Part shown: one piece after another, positions 10,750 through 41,440 of the stretch | Position numbering within the stretch: the stretch's first letter is position 1 | Layout of the letters: each line of letters starts with the position of its first letter | Source: an uncultured Lachnospiraceae bacterium | Lineage (GTDB): Bacteria > Bacillota > Clostridia > Lachnospirales > Lachnospiraceae | NCBI GenBank assembly: GCA_947165275.1 | Contig: CAMUZQ010000002.1 | Coordinates: 1-64,000, forward strand | Reading direction: 5' to 3' | Length of the DNA: 64,000 nt | Made by a program: the position numbers and the translations under genes | The notes under the pieces: generated by a model | Told to the model about the DNA's origin: nothing | What the model saw: the letters and a program-made list of their open reading frames with translations, nothing else | Databases searched by the model: none

Positions 10750-12512
10750 GGCTTATGAGGCTGTATCTGAAAAGGATCATATGTATCGCAGCCGCGTTTT
10801 CACTTGCTGTGACTCCGGTGCCGGTTCATGCTTCAACTACATCCGATAAGATAAAACAGGTTGAGAAGGAGCAGGCAAATACAAAGGATAAGCTCGGAGA
10901 AACACAGGATACCCTGGATCAGCTCAAGGACTCCAAACAGGCTATACAGAAAAGCCTGAATAACCTTAATGACCAGCTTGATGAAAAGACAGAGGAGATA
11001 TCCGATATAGAGGATCAGATCTCTGCAAAAAAGCAGGAGATCGAGGATATCGAGAAGGAATATGAGGACGCTCTGGAGCAGGCTGATGAGCAGTATAAAT
11101 TCATCAAGGCCAGGATCAGGACGATATATGAGACAGGCTCAAATGATATATATGATCTTTTATTCAATTCCGGGAGCATGGCCGGGTTTTTGAATAAGGC
11201 CATATATATTTCCAGAATGAATGATTATGACAAAAAGATGATGGACAAGCTCCAGAATCTGATGGATGATGCTAATTCAAAGAAGGAAAGGCTCGTAAAT
11301 GAGGATCAGGAGCTCCAGGAGCTTATCACTGCGAAGGAAAAAGAGGTGGATGATCTGGAAGAGCTCGTGGACAGCACGGAAAACAGCCTTGTAAGCTACG
11401 CAGGTGCCATATCCGAAAAGGAAAGGGAGGCTCTTGAGTATGAGGCGAAGCTCGTGGCAAGCCAGAGTACCCTCGCATCCCTGAAATCAAAGCTTGCAGA
11501 GGAGGAGGAGCTCGCCCGACAGGCTGAAAAGATGGCCTTCAGGGATATTTCAGAGGTATCGGTAGGAGCAGGCGACAGAGACCTGCTCGCAGCTATCATA
11601 CAGTGTGAGGCGGGCGGAGAGCCCTATGCAGGAAAGATAGCGGTGGGAGCCGTCATCATGAACCGTGTAAGGAGCGGAGCCTTCCCTAATACCATAGCCG
11701 GAGTTGTATACCAGCCGATGCAGTTCCAGCCTGTACGTTCCGGAAGACTTGCGATAAGGCTCTCGGAGGGCGCAAACAGCGAATGCTACAAGGCTGCCGA
11801 CGAGGTAATGGCGGGAGCAAATAATATAGGCAACTGTCTCTTCTTCAGGACAGTGGTGCCCGGCATAAAGGGAACTATAATAGGACATCATGTATTCTAT
11901 CTGCACTGGACAGGTGTAGCGTCAGGATACGGCACCGTGGAGGAGTCCATGGACGGAGATGCCTCCGAATCCAAGGCGGCCTCGGAGGAAGCAGCCTCAG
12001 AGGAGGCTTCGAAGGAGAATGCTTCCAAGGAGAGCTCATCCGAGGAGAAATCCTCAAAATCATCTGAGGATAAGTCATCCGGGGATGATGAGGACAGCGA
12101 TGATGAGGAGGAGTCAATGGAGTCTGAGGATAAGTCCGGCGACAGGTCCTCAAAGGATGAATCTTCGAAGGAGCAGGCCTCAAAGGAAGCCTCGGAAGCA
12201 GCGTCGAAGGAAGCAGCGTCGAAGGAGGCAGCATCGAAAGAAGCAGCATCCAAGGAAGCCGATGAGGAAGCGTCAAAAGAAGCAGCATCGAAGGAGGAGG
12301 CCTCTAAGGAAGCAGCATCAAAGGAGCAGGCCGAGAAGGAGGCCAGCGAGCAGGCTTCGAAGGAGAAGGCAGAAAAGGAGGCCAGCGAGCAGGCTTCGAA
12401 GGAGAAGGCAGAAAAGGAGGCCAGCGAGCAGGCTTCGAAGGAGAAGGCGGAAAAAGAGGCTGCAGAGCAGAGCGAGAAGGAGGAGAGCAACTCCGACGGA
12501 GAATCCGAATAA
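10746..12512 (+). CDS. Secreted coiled-coil / SleB-type (Hydrolase_2) cell-wall hydrolase with SKEAA-repeat C-terminal tail
   Basis: Signal peptide; long coiled coil; LLAAIIQCEAGGEPYAGKIAVGAVIMNRVRSGAFPNTIAGVVYQ; low-complexity tail. Confidence 0.85.
   Translation: MRLMRLYLKRIICIAAAFSLAVTPVPVHASTTSDKIKQVEKEQANTKDKLGETQDTLDQLKDSKQAIQKSLNNLNDQLDEKTEEISDIEDQISAKKQEIEDIEKEYEDALEQADEQYKFIKARIRTIYETGSNDIYDLLFNSGSMAGFLNKAIYISRMNDYDKKMMDKLQNLMDDANSKKERLVNEDQELQELITAKEKEVDDLEELVDSTENSLVSYAGAISEKEREALEYEAKLVASQSTLASLKSKLAEEEELARQAEKMAFRDISEVSVGAGDRDLLAAIIQCEAGGEPYAGKIAVGAVIMNRVRSGAFPNTIAGVVYQPMQFQPVRSGRLAIRLSEGANSECYKAADEVMAGANNIGNCLFFRTVVPGIKGTIIGHHVFYLHWTGVASGYGTVEESMDGDASESKAASEEAASEEASKENASKESSSEEKSSKSSEDKSSGDDEDSDDEEESMESEDKSGDRSSKDESSKEQASKEASEAASKEAASKEAASKEAASKEADEEASKEAASKEEASKEAASKEQAEKEASEQASKEKAEKEASEQASKEKAEKEASEQASKEKAEKEAAEQSEKEESNSDGESE
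12341..12457 (+). repeat. 39-bp in-frame tandem repeat, about 3 copies (13 aa EASEQASKEKAEK)
   Basis: ggccagcgagcaggcttcgaaggagaaggcagaaaagga repeated with little change. Confidence 0.9.
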
Positions 12513-36358: not shown

Positions 36359-36401
36359 ACATTGTTTGAAGGTGTCGATCAAAAGGCCGGAAAGGGGCAA
36401 T

Positions 36402-37853
36402 ATGGACAGACAGAATCTTACATTATTAACAGATCTATACGAGCTCACTATGATGCAGGGCTATTTCAAGAATGAAAACGCCAACCAGACCGTGATATTC
36501 GATATGTTTTACCGGACTAATCCCCTGGAGAGCGGATATGCGGTGATGGCAGGCCTGGAGCAGGTCATACAGTACATCAAGGAGCTTAGATTTGATGCGG
36601 AGGATATCGAGTATTTACGGGGACTGGGGATATTCCAGGAGGATTTTCTGGAGTACCTGAAGGATTTCAGATTCACGGGATCGGTCTGGTCCATACCCGA
36701 GGGTGAGGTCATATTTCCCAGGGAGCCTCTCGTAAAGGTGATAGCTCCCATAATGCAGGCGCAGCTTGTGGAGACGGCGATACTTAATATCATAAACCAC
36801 CAGTCACTCATAGCGACAAAAACAGCCAGGGTATGCTATGCGGCCCGCGGGGACGGGGTCATGGAGTTCGGCCTGAGGCGGGCCCAGGGACCAGACGCAG
36901 GGACATACGGCGCAAGGGCTGCGATGATAGGAGGCTGCATAGGCACCTCCAATGTACTCGCGGGACAGCTTTTTGATGTGCCCGTAAAGGGAACAAATGC
37001 GCATTCATGGGTGATGAGCTTCCCTGATGAGCTTACGGCCTTCAGGAAATATGCGGAGATATATCCCGATGCCTGCCTGCTCATAGCAGATACCTATGAT
37101 ACACTCAAATCCGGAGTACCGAATGCCATAAAGGTATTTACGGAGCTCAGGGAAAAGGGAATACATCCGAAGCTCTACGGAGTCAGGTTTGATTCGGGAG
37201 ATCTGGCATATCTTTCAAAGAAGGCAAGAAAGATGCTTGATGAGGCGGGCTTCCCCGACGCGGTGCTCTCCGCATCGAATGATCTGGATGAATTCCTCAT
37301 AGATTCACTGAAGGTGCAGGGAGCGATGATAACCAGCTGGGGCGTGGGCACGAATCTCATAACCTCAAAGGACTGGCCTGCCTTCGGCGGAGTGTACAAG
37401 CTTGCAGGCATAGTCAATGAGGACGGCAGCTGCACGCCGAAGATCAAGCTTTCGGAGAATTCTGAGAAGATAACCAATCCGGGGAATAAGAAGATAATAA
37501 GGGTATATGACAGTGAGGGCAAGGTGAAGGCAGATCTTATCTGTCTGATAGAGGAGGAATTCGATCCGAAGGAGGACCTGATCCTTTTCGATCCCCAGGA
37601 GCCCTGGAAGAGGACAAGGCTCAAGGGCGGTGAGTATACCATGAGGGAGCTTATGATACAGGTATTTGACAAGGGGGAGTGTGTATATACTTCGCCATCC
37701 GTCATGGAGATGAGGGATTACTGTCGGAAAGAGCTGGATACACTTTGGGATGAGACGAGGAGGCTTGTGAATCCGCATAAGGTTTATGTGGATCTGTCGC
37801 AGAAGCTGTATGATATGAAGCTGAATCTGCTGGACGAGATGAGTATGAGGTGA
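36402..37853 (+). CDS. pncB: Nicotinate phosphoribosyltransferase
   Basis: LTLLTDLYELTMMQGYF; FGLRRAQGPDA; start revised to ATG 36402 (SD ggaaagggg). Confidence 0.95.
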   Translation: MDRQNLTLLTDLYELTMMQGYFKNENANQTVIFDMFYRTNPLESGYAVMAGLEQVIQYIKELRFDAEDIEYLRGLGIFQEDFLEYLKDFRFTGSVWSIPEGEVIFPREPLVKVIAPIMQAQLVETAILNIINHQSLIATKTARVCYAARGDGVMEFGLRRAQGPDAGTYGARAAMIGGCIGTSNVLAGQLFDVPVKGTNAHSWVMSFPDELTAFRKYAEIYPDACLLIADTYDTLKSGVPNAIKVFTELREKGIHPKLYGVRFDSGDLAYLSKKARKMLDEAGFPDAVLSASNDLDEFLIDSLKVQGAMITSWGVGTNLITSKDWPAFGGVYKLAGIVNEDGSCTPKIKLSENSEKITNPGNKKIIRVYDSEGKVKADLICLIEEEFDPKEDLILFDPQEPWKRTRLKGGEYTMRELMIQVFDKGECVYTSPSVMEMRDYCRKELDTLWDETRRLVNPHKVYVDLSQKLYDMKLNLLDEMSMR

Positions 37854-37899
37854 ACGTGAGATGACACTGTGAAGAGGGCAGGGGATGAGTATAAGATAA

Positions 37900-38213
37900 C
37901 ACTGTGAAGAGGCCTGATGAGATGAGATGTTTTCAGCGCCGTACTTTTTCGAGGCGTGATGTCACTTAGAAAGTGCTCCTAAACTCAGGGGCTCGCGTAC
38001 ATGGATGTACGCGAGAGGCATTCCTGCAAAATATGCCCTTTGGCATATTTTGAGCGCCGTTTAGATGCGCCGGGCGCATCTGGCGCCGAGACATGGATGT
38101 GAATAATGCCGGCCCCGTGGGGAGCCAATACATAAATGCACTTTCTTAGTGACATAGCTGAGAAAAAACTGCAAGCTGAAAATATCTCATTTCAGCAGGC
38201 CAGGCACACAGTG
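37900..38213. mobile_element. MITE-like nested inverted-repeat element between pncB and ileS
   Basis: Outer arms CACTGTG/CACAGTG, GGCCTG../..CAGGCC, ATGAGATGTTTTCAGC/GCTGAAAATATCTCAT, GTCACTTAGAAAGTGC/GCACTTTCTTAGTGAC; internal perfect hairpins at 37992-38015, 38027-38052, 38054-38086. Confidence 0.65.
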
Positions 38214-38284
38214 AACATACTTCATATTATAAGTATTATTTACAAAGGAATTCATAGTAAGAAATAAAAAATCAGGAGAGAAAA

Positions 38285-41200
38285 ATGTATCAGAAAGTTA
38301 ACACAGATCTGAATTTCGTGGACCGGGAGAGGGAGGTCGAGAAGTTCTGGAAGGATGAGGACATCTTCATGAAGTCCATGGAGATCCGAAAGGACGGACC
38401 TATCTATACCTTTTATGACGGACCGCCCACGGCAAACGGCAAGCCCCATATAGGGCATGTGCTTACCAGGGTCATCAAGGATATGATCCCGAGATACCGT
38501 ACCATGAAGGGGTATTATGTGCCGAGGAAGGCTGGATGGGATACCCACGGACTCCCGGTGGAGCTCGAGGTCGAGAAAAAGCTGGGACTTGACGGCAAGG
38601 ACCAGATAGAGGAATACGGACTGGAGCCTTTCATAGGAGAATGTAAGGAATCTGTCTGGAAATATAAGGGCATGTGGGAGAAATTCTCAGGGCAGGTAGG
38701 CTTCTGGGCCGATATGGACGATCCCTATGTCACATATCATGACGACTTCATAGAGTCCGAATGGTGGGCTTTAAAGCAGATATATGACAAGGGTCTCCTG
38801 TATAAGGGCTTCAAGATAGTCCCTTATTGTCCCAGGTGCGGGACTCCGCTCTCGTCACATGAGGTGGCGCAGGGCTATAAGGCAGTGAAGGAGCGCTCGG
38901 CCATAGCAAGGTTTCAGGTAAAGGGTGAGGAGAATAAATACATCCTGGCATGGACCACAACCCCCTGGACCCTGCCCTCAAACGTGGCTCTCTGCGTGAA
39001 TCCCGATGAGGAATACTGCGAGGTAAAGACAGCAGACGGATATGATTACATCATGGCTAAGGCCCTGCTCGAGAAGGTGCTCGGCGGAGAGGACGCGCCC
39101 ACGAGCCCCTATGAGATAATAAAGACCTGCAGCGGATCAGAGCTTTGCGGCATAGAATACGTGCCTCTCTTTGAATGCGCTGCGGCAGAGGCTGAGAGAC
39201 AGCATAAAAAGGCGCATTACATCGTGGCGGACGGCTATGTCACCATGGAGGACGGTACCGGAGTGGTACATATAGCTCCTGCCTTCGGTGAGGACGACGC
39301 GAGAGTAGGAAGGGCGAATGACCTGCCTCTGGTACAGTTTGTCGATGACAAGGGGCATATGACGGAGCAGACCCCCGTAGCCGGGCTTTTCGTGAAGGAC
39401 GCGGATCCCGAGATACTCAAGGATCTGGACAGGAGAGGGCTTTTATTCTCGGCTCCGAAATTCGAGCATGATTATCCTTTCTGCTGGAGATGCGACACGC
39501 CGCTCATATATTATGCAAGGGAATCCTGGTTCATCAAGGTGACCGAGGTCAAGGACCAGATGATCGAGAATAATAAAAAGATCAACTGGATCCCCCAGAA
39601 TATAGGCACGGGAAGATTCGGAGAGTGGCTCAATAATATCCAGGACTGGGCAGTATCCAGAAACAGATACTGGGGGACGCCCTTGAATATCTGGGAGTGC
39701 CCCGACTGCGGAGAGAGGCTTTCCGTAGGCTCCAGGGAGGAGCTGTATAAGCTCACGGGACTGGAGGAGGCAAAGACTGTGGAGCTCCACAGGCCCTTCA
39801 TAGACAGATTCACCATCAAATGCGCAAAATGCGGCGGTGAGATGAAGAGAGTGCCCGAGGTCATAGACTGCTGGTTTGATTCAGGTGCGATGCCTTTCGC
39901 ACAGCATCATTATCCCTTCGAGAATAAGGAGCTTTTCGAGCAGCAGTATCCGGCAGCCTTCATATCAGAGGCAGTGGACCAGACCAGGGGATGGTTTTAT
40001 TCCCTTCATGCAGAGTCAACACTGCTTTTCGGCAAGCCCGCATATGAAAATGTCATAGTACTGGGGCTTGTGCTCGATGAGGACGGCAATAAGATGAGCA
40101 AATCAAAGGGGAATTCCGTGGATCCTTTTGATGCCCTGGACCGTTTCGGAGCGGATGCCATCAGATGGTATTTCTATATCAATTCCGCGCCCTGGCTTCC
40201 AAACAGGTTCCATGACAAGGCAGTGGTGGAGTGCCAGAGGAAATTCATGGGAACCCTGTGGAATACCTACGCCTTCTTCGTGCTCTATGCGAATATAGAC
40301 GATTTCGACGCATCAAAATATAAGCTGGAGCCTGAGAAGCTCGCAGTGATGGACAAATGGATACTTTCAAAGCTGAATTCCTGCATCAGGCAGACAGATG
40401 CTTATCTTAATGATTACAGGATAACAGAGGCAGCCAAGTGCCTGCAGGATTTTGTGGATGATATGAGCAACTGGTATGTGAGACGCTCCAGAGAGAGATT
40501 CTGGGCATCGGGCATGGAGCAGGATAAGATAAATGCTTACATGACGCTCTATACCTGCCTTGTAAATATATCTAAGGCAGCGGCTCCCATGATACCCTTC
40601 ATGACAGAGGAGATATATCAGAATCTCGTGCTCTCGGTCGACAAGAGCCAGCCCGAATCCATACATCTTACTGATTATCCCGTATGTGATGAGAGCATGG
40701 TGGATGAGAAGCTTGAGCATGACATGGATGAGGTCCTTGATATAGTAGTGCTGGGCCGCGCCGCAAGAAATGCAGTGAATATCAAAAACCGCCAGCCCAT
40801 CGCAAGGATGTATGTGAAGGCCGGCGAGACGCTCTCGGACTTCTATACGGATATCGTGGCGGATGAGCTTAATGTAAAAGAGGTGGTATTCTCCGATGAT
40901 GTGAGGGGATATACGACCTATACCTTCAAGCCGCAGCTGCGCACTGTAGGCCCGAAATACGGCAAGCAGCTGGGTGCCATCCGTGAATATCTCTCAAAGA
41001 TAGACGGCAATGCAGCCATGGACCAGCTTAATGCCGGAGAGGAGCTGCGCCTCGAGGCCGACGGAGTGGAGATAGTCCTCGAAAAGGAGGATCTGCTGAT
41101 AGAGATGACCTCGAAGGAGGGCTTCGTGGAGCAGGGCGATAATAAGATCACAGTAGTCCTTGATACGAATCTCACACCGGAGCTCATAGAAGAGGGCTTC

Positions 41201-41440
41201 GTGCGCGAGCTTATCTCCAAGGTCCAGAATATGAGAAAAGAAGCCGGTTTTGAGGTCATGGACAGGATCACCGTATATGAAAAGGATAATGAGGTCCTGG
41301 CAAAGTACCTTATGGACAACAGGGACTTCGTATTGAAGGAGGTCATGGCTTCCGACATAGTCACAGGCTCCGTGGACGGATATACCAGGGAATGGGATAT
41401 CAACGGCGAGCATGTGACGCTTGGTGTGAAGAAGAACTGA
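38285..41440 (+). CDS. ileS: Isoleucyl-tRNA synthetase
   Basis: PPTANGKPHIGHVLTR (HIGH); KMSKSKGN (KMSKS). Confidence 0.98.
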   Translation: MYQKVNTDLNFVDREREVEKFWKDEDIFMKSMEIRKDGPIYTFYDGPPTANGKPHIGHVLTRVIKDMIPRYRTMKGYYVPRKAGWDTHGLPVELEVEKKLGLDGKDQIEEYGLEPFIGECKESVWKYKGMWEKFSGQVGFWADMDDPYVTYHDDFIESEWWALKQIYDKGLLYKGFKIVPYCPRCGTPLSSHEVAQGYKAVKERSAIARFQVKGEENKYILAWTTTPWTLPSNVALCVNPDEEYCEVKTADGYDYIMAKALLEKVLGGEDAPTSPYEIIKTCSGSELCGIEYVPLFECAAAEAERQHKKAHYIVADGYVTMEDGTGVVHIAPAFGEDDARVGRANDLPLVQFVDDKGHMTEQTPVAGLFVKDADPEILKDLDRRGLLFSAPKFEHDYPFCWRCDTPLIYYARESWFIKVTEVKDQMIENNKKINWIPQNIGTGRFGEWLNNIQDWAVSRNRYWGTPLNIWECPDCGERLSVGSREELYKLTGLEEAKTVELHRPFIDRFTIKCAKCGGEMKRVPEVIDCWFDSGAMPFAQHHYPFENKELFEQQYPAAFISEAVDQTRGWFYSLHAESTLLFGKPAYENVIVLGLVLDEDGNKMSKSKGNSVDPFDALDRFGADAIRWYFYINSAPWLPNRFHDKAVVECQRKFMGTLWNTYAFFVLYANIDDFDASKYKLEPEKLAVMDKWILSKLNSCIRQTDAYLNDYRITEAAKCLQDFVDDMSNWYVRRSRERFWASGMEQDKINAYMTLYTCLVNISKAAAPMIPFMTEEIYQNLVLSVDKSQPESIHLTDYPVCDESMVDEKLEHDMDEVLDIVVLGRAARNAVNIKNRQPIARMYVKAGETLSDFYTDIVADELNVKEVVFSDDVRGYTTYTFKPQLRTVGPKYGKQLGAIREYLSKIDGNAAMDQLNAGEELRLEADGVEIVLEKEDLLIEMTSKEGFVEQGDNKITVVLDTNLTPELIEEGFVRELISKVQNMRKEAGFEVMDRITVYEKDNEVLAKYLMDNRDFVLKEVMASDIVTGSVDGYTREWDINGEHVTLGVKKN

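Follow-up and report, generated by a model that had tools for sequence, protein, structure and literature searches.

The RNA family TwoAYGGAY (RF01731; Weinberg et al. 2010, PMC2864571) comprises two hairpins with AYGGAY loops that are closed by a long outer stem; it is modelled over 168 positions in Rfam, where it is typed as Cis-reg. Binding of CsrA by this family, taken as a CsrA-binding sRNA, was proposed in 2014 from motif matches (PMC4333381). The consensus obtained for CsrA by SELEX is RUACARGGAUGU, with the ANGGAN hexaloop as the preferred hairpin loop; the ligands had mostly four or fewer contiguous pairs and two sites can be bridged by one CsrA dimer over 10-63 nt, while the known antagonist of CsrA in firmicutes is the protein FliW (PMC7652899). 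The CsrB/CsrC/RsmX/Y/Z RNAs of Gammaproteobacteria resemble TwoAYGGAY in having GGA in hairpin loops and a host with CsrA, but TwoAYGGAY, as read from sequence alone, has two predicted sites per element, occurs in many mobile copies and is found in Clostridia. For Clostridia, it appears that no RNA that sequesters CsrA has been established. TwoAYGGAY also shares with bacterial MITEs a short, geneless and multicopy nature, terminal inverted repeats (the arms of the copy described here, and common repeats in two other lineages) and target-site duplications (in those two lineages). Mobility of the family is nowhere stated in the portion of the TwoAYGGAY literature that was consulted and a literature search combining MITE with CsrA returned nothing relevant. 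The mobility and target-site duplications described below, the nesting of two repeats and the association with CsrA appear to be new.

The locus under study lies in a window of 64,000 nt, i.e. the whole stretch of DNA analysed, from an uncultured Lachnospiraceae bacterium. It consists of a nested inverted repeat of 314 nt located between pncB and ileS, with its sense on the same strand as both genes. We regard it as a member of a known RNA family whose MITE-like, mobile nature is recognised here and whose link with CsrA is unproven but now better supported. Its features and flanking genes are as follows.

36366-37853, plus strand: pncB, nicotinate phosphoribosyltransferase (name kept from an earlier note), an ORF that adjoins ileS in relatives
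37900-38213, plus strand: whole element, bounded by the outermost pairing (sequence and fold; absent in relatives)
37900-37906 and 38207-38213: outermost pair, CACTGTG with CACAGTG (sequence)
37911-37916 and 38196-38201: GGCCTG paired with CAGGCC (sequence)
37911-37937, plus strand: 5' outer arm, lineage- and copy-specific, GGCCTG... here and GGCTCG... in sister copies
37922-37937 and 38175-38190: paired arms (sequence)
37925-38187, plus strand: portion common to the dispersed copies in its own genome and genus, AGATGTTTTCAGC...GCTGAAAATATCT
37954-38160, plus strand: match to the RF01731 TwoAYGGAY covariance model, 66.1 bits
37961-37976: GTCACTTAGAAAGTGC, with its complementary partner as located in the earlier note (sequence)
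37994-38015, plus strand: hairpin 1 of RF01731, CTCGCGTACA-TGGA-TGTACGCGAG, with loop site 1, ACATGGATGT, at 37999-38008 and its GGA at 38003-38005
38018-38023 and 38105-38110: stem of hairpin 2, GGCATT...AATGCC, split by the inner repeat
38027-38090, plus strand: inner REP-like palindrome of ca. 64 bp with two hairpins, in the loop of hairpin 2 (solo copies in the genus)
38091-38100, plus strand: loop site 2, ACATGGATGT, GGA at 38095-38097 (sequence, Rfam match, genus alignment)
38175-38201, plus strand: 3' outer arm, pairing with the 5' arm (fold, copy comparison)
38285-41440, plus strand: ileS, isoleucyl-tRNA synthetase (ORF; tblastn matches in 43 of 48 genus genomes)

The fold computed for positions 37880-38240 (361 nt) reached -159.5 kcal/mol; 100 dinucleotide shuffles averaged -101.6 (sd 5.2), and none of them was as good (z = -11.2). 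This agrees with the nested structure described in the earlier note, which had been made from the letters of the window; its arm segments were all found in place, and the lack of coding potential that it reported also holds, with no ORF of at least 80 aa in the 314 nt. The three inner hairpins that it listed are all present, but only one of them is a TwoAYGGAY hairpin (hairpin 1), the other two forming the separate repeat lodged at 38027-38090; the second ACATGGATGT, and with it the second AYGGAY site, had been overlooked. An Rfam search, which the note had recommended, returned TwoAYGGAY with 66.1 bits for a gathering cut-off of 43. This was the sole family above cut-off in the window, a T-box, whose absence from this copy had been noted, not being among the matches. 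Both AYGGAY loops are present as ATGGAT (38001-38006 and 38093-38098). Compared with the Rfam model, the unit found in the window is longer, reaching about 310 nt, and its second hairpin is interrupted by the insertion of 64 bp. Just 5' of the element, ACACTGTGAAGAGG occurs twice (37865-37878 and 37899-37912), 34 nt apart, and is possibly what remains of the end of another element.

When 48 genus genomes were searched at the DNA level, the two components could be told apart. The outer repeat (37925-38026 plus 38091-38187) is found elsewhere without the interior, and the inner unit (about 38027-38090) occurs alone in many copies across the genus and is absent from 20 of the 27 aligned sister outer elements. 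Its position is the same in six elements, with a second one in L036 and a third in L189, and these three different positions indicate that it moves independently. The inner unit resembles REP elements in being short, dispersed, palindromic, intergenic and present in many copies per genome, with the difference that no inner unit flanks the Y1/RAYT-like gene in G000:C73. A RAYT link was considered and found unsupported, since no inner unit occurs near the Y1 genes at G000:C73, G000:C2 and G079:C26. Two of these Y1 (IS200/RAYT-like) transposase genes are located at G000:C2:82537-82743 (broken; on the contig of the window but outside it) and at G000:C73:9990-10325.

In the bacterial family to which the window belongs, RF01731 was detected in 39 of 250 genomes, with copy numbers per genome that are lower bounds and amount to at least ten in 11 of the 39; family copies are about 280-310 nt long. 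The window's own genome carries two full outer copies that are 93% identical, together with incomplete ones at the breaks of the assembly (contig ends). In another bacterial family, nine copies are spread over the single-contig 3.1-Mb genome G331. Across the genomes compared, the nearest relative of a copy lies in the same genome for 44 of 45 copies. At the pncB-ileS site, the two genes are adjacent and co-oriented in the closest genus members, in which element-free spacers measure 14 nt (G263, G254), 30 nt (G079), 43 nt (G281) and 62 nt (G255); the spacer is 431 nt long in the window and 140 nt in G283. The spacers of the close relatives leave no place for the element, which points to an insertion rather than to a conserved regulator of ileS, and the single copy conserved only upstream of ileS that, for the earlier note, would have spoken against mobility was not what was found. 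Spacers of 187 nt in G292 (L090) and 343 nt in G286 (L086) contain unrelated palindromic-looking filler, as judged by eye, and the pncB-ileS spacer may be a place where insertions are tolerated.

The ends of the copies in G176 and G122 read ATTCGGGTGTCAAAAGGT...ACCTTTTGACACCCGAAT, and the 9 flanking bases exactly outside these ends match at 6.14 of 9 positions versus 4.01 in shuffles (z = 9.4), with z values of at most 2.4 at all other offsets. The G331 copies have other ends (CTNNGATTCGTAATAT) and are bordered on both sides by direct repeats, among them ATCATATAA, GTACATAAA and ATGGAATGG. When 8-10 bp were allowed, a shared direct repeat of at least 7 bp was found for 12 of 18 copies in G331 (1.1 expected) and 15 of 28 in G176 (2.7 expected); the mean longest direct repeat in the two lineages was 7.6 versus 3.9 shuffled and 6.6 versus 4.4 shuffled, the observed mean being reached by no shuffle in either genome. 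In the window's own genus, no such signal was detected at any offset in 22 copies; the case for insertion there is made by the empty sites, and the mechanism is extrapolated from relatives. The non-autonomous mobile element postulated in the earlier note is thus supported by dispersed copies, by the insertion polymorphism between pncB and ileS and by target-site duplications in two other lineages; the duplications expected next to the copies were found in G176 and G331 and were not detected in the window's genus. Taken together, these sequence comparisons make it very probable that the TwoAYGGAY family, typed Cis-reg by Rfam, is mobile.

Searches with the end patterns in G176, G122 and G331 gave no transposase-bearing pair; a pair of ends 1510 bp apart in G331 was rejected as an autonomous element and is regarded as a chance pair, since it encloses glycosidase-like and transporter-like ORFs and no transposase. 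TwoAYGGAY differs from bacterial MITEs in that no transposase-bearing partner was found in these three genomes, in its ends, which are wholly unlike between lineages, and in its conserved structured centre with loops resembling protein sites. Elements of ca. 396 bp sharing the ends of the 284-bp ones were seen in G331 (C1:383032-383428, 736181-736577, 875854-876250 and 1943781-1944176), which suggests another nested insertion in that lineage. Several genomes contain oppositely oriented pairs of TwoAYGGAY copies, the two lying no more than about 500 bp apart (G086:C1:72285/72750, G008:C47:139778/140187, G008:C33:53805/54268, G037:C123:25808/26152 and G286:C105:1-173/258-466).

Among 65 copies flanked by a gene on either side, 31 share the orientation of the upstream gene and 22 that of the downstream gene, which is convergent in the other 43; about half of the copies are antisense to neighbouring genes. 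There is therefore no tie to the downstream gene, and the cis-regulatory position implied by the Rfam type, which forms no part of the family's definition by sequence, is not observed. For an RNA family typed in this way and spread by transposition, alignments, covariation and genomic neighbours need rereading. Around the window copy, no promoter or terminator signal was above chance except for a 9/12 match downstream, and in G176 the flanks of the copies showed no common promoter outside the inverted repeats. Lying in sense orientation between co-oriented genes, the window copy would be well placed for transcription.

The arms differ between copies of one genome, yet they pair along their whole length. 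In 19 genus copies, 92.9% of arm cells pair, compared with 39-48% in slid controls, and changes on both sides affect 237 cells versus 74.5 in shuffles. Structure is therefore conserved among homologues, as the earlier note had proposed to examine, but this does not prove selection on an RNA, because G-U and A-C combinations are nearly equal in the arms. Overall, with a scoring alike for both, 187 G-U were counted versus 150 A-C; the near-identical copies of G176 alone, which repeat the same pairs, account for 74:13, and without them the counts are 113 versus 137 (12 versus 13 genomes). Strand asymmetry was consequently dropped as an argument that the arms are under RNA selection, the excess being due to G176. 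RNase P RNA of the same genus shows 205 G-U versus 18 A-C. When the RNase P procedure was run on TwoAYGGAY, it gave 40 versus 13 and 93 versus 53, the RNAalifold structures favouring G-U in both. Since the arms show no G-U excess of the kind seen in RNase P RNA, their pairing looks to be maintained mostly in the DNA itself, where correction of palindromes or selection on inverted repeats, for instance, could act. Both RNA selection and palindromic DNA can thus give rise to strong covariation; the G-U:A-C ratio helps to discriminate between them. The idea of an insertion into pre-existing hairpins, which came from flanks that are unlike but complementary, was abandoned as the arms are homologous between copies and paired throughout.

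The centre behaves differently. All 27 aligned genus copies have CA.GGATG as loop 1, and 26 have it as loop 2. Within genomes the loops changed in 1 of 240 cells in G176 and 0 of 160 in G331, against 5.2% and 4.3% elsewhere; some of the copies in these sets had been selected with the covariance model, which is biased towards intact loops. When full-length copies were selected solely by their ends, the loops were again retained, with AGAATG in L163 as the sole exception. The stems of the centre also vary less than the arms in the within-genome sets. Membership in RF01731 and the two conserved loops make a role of the element as RNA likely, and one that is not specific to ileS.

By reading, site 1 (GUACAUGGAUGU) matches the CsrA consensus at 11 of 12 positions and site 2 (AGACAUGGAUGU) at 10 of 12. 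The gene csrA (PF02599) is present in 38 of the 39 element-bearing genomes of the family versus 90 of the 211 others (p = 1e-11, kinship ignored), and across the class in 24 of 28 genomes with the element versus 71 of 263 without (p = 1.5e-9, kinship ignored). By bacterial family, the figures are 10 of 10 with the element and about 22 of 67 without (p = 6e-5; 77 families in all), intersections and families having been counted by hand with phylogeny and motility uncontrolled, and this co-occurrence may reflect shared ancestry or motility. The five element-bearing genomes in which csrA was not detected (G168, G471, G512, G551 and G569) are all incomplete assemblies. The csrA gene of the window's own genome (G000:C19) adjoins flagellar-type ORFs, one of which is FliW-like (named from sequence). 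Two or three csrA genes were seen in several of the genomes with the element, and at L133 a TwoAYGGAY copy is separated by 1.2 kb from a second, divergent CsrA gene (G042:C54:10614-10763 and 11975-12139). Together with loops that stay constant amid drifting arms, the csrA co-occurrence provides a testable case for mobile paired CsrA sites in Clostridia.

The reading that we favour, and consider probable, is that of a MITE-like TwoAYGGAY copy whose transcribed loops bind CsrA, the copies acting as decoys. The element is a long, geneless DNA palindrome with lineage-specific terminal repeats, fast-changing complementary arms and a slow-changing centre of two hairpins. It spreads in a cut-and-paste manner with duplication of a target of 8-10 bp, as shown in two other lineages. 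The window copy inserted itself between the closely spaced pncB and ileS, in sense with both, and the second small palindromic repeat entered the loop of hairpin 2 before or after this jump. It would be transcribed, most likely by read-through from pncB, and the centre of its transcript would expose two CA(N)GGAUG loops resembling RUACARGGAUGU and probably able to bind CsrA. Jointly, transcribed copies could act as decoys and would locally bring CsrA to host messages. Hairpin 1 of the window copy has about 10 pairs, compared with four or fewer contiguous ones in most SELEX ligands, and the distance between the two GGA is 92 nt in this copy versus about 28 nt without the inner repeat; since 92 nt is beyond the range bridged by a CsrA dimer, the window copy may bind CsrA less well than its sisters. 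A physiological role as a CsrA sponge is proposed only tentatively, and that mobile copies titrate CsrA through their transcripts is put forward with the same reserve. If true, copy number and insertion site would tune a flagellar and carbon regulator of Clostridia, and the family would be a CsrA antagonist of a new class, one disseminated by transposition.

The same mobility would be expected of a purely selfish MITE, whose hairpins and GGA loops would have their function in transposition, being recognised by a transposase, perhaps in the form of ssDNA hairpins, and for which CsrA would be irrelevant. The arms pair without strand preference once G176 is set aside, in contrast with RNase P RNA, and a slow-changing centre could be a transposase constraint. 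This explanation, which we consider rather unlikely, leaves aside that the loops fit the CsrA consensus both in sequence and in hexaloop form and that the element tracks csrA across 10 families. Moreover, a DDE-type insertion with duplications of 8-10 bp needs the ends and not the centre, and palindromes of 57-187 bp bounded by the same ends in G176, with a different centre or none, also move.

Two CsrA-like sites and many copies would also suit a chromosomally fixed gene for a trans-acting CsrA-sequestering sRNA that multiplied by duplication and not by transposition, in line with the 2014 proposal of a CsrA-binding sRNA (PMC4333381). This is contradicted by the target-site duplications and by the sharp ends; it also finds little to build on in the promoter and terminator signals mentioned above for G176 and the window copy, and is very unlikely. 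Slightly less credible still is a structural repeat of the REP/ERIC type whose transcript would stabilise, process (RNase III) or terminate mRNAs: the hairpin is very long and near-perfect and is often intergenic with a convergent downstream gene, but two invariant GGA loops on one strand and the link with csrA would be left unexplained.

Finally, a cis-regulatory leader of ileS (riboswitch or attenuator), close to the structured RNA controlling ileS that the earlier note had envisaged, is refuted as a conserved leader and has next to no probability left, since in spite of the sense orientation of the window copy upstream of ileS, of another TwoAYGGAY copy upstream of ileS in G264 and a remnant in G273, and of the Cis-reg type, the element is missing at this place in close relatives, the downstream gene is on the same strand in only 22 of 65 copies and no terminator was found. 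Any effect of the window copy on ileS would be incidental. An ileS riboswitch or T-box was likewise rejected, with no Rfam match and no counterpart in close relatives. By eye, a T-box-like leader (AAAGGCTATGACGA...GGTGGTACAACGG) precedes ileS in distant genus members that have no pncB there (L097-L103, L106-L109 and L111) and was apparently lost where ileS follows pncB. At L191 (G264:C50), a TwoAYGGAY copy has repeats of the GGAGACAGGGGGACGGTCC / GGACCGTCCCCCTGTCTCC type on both sides.
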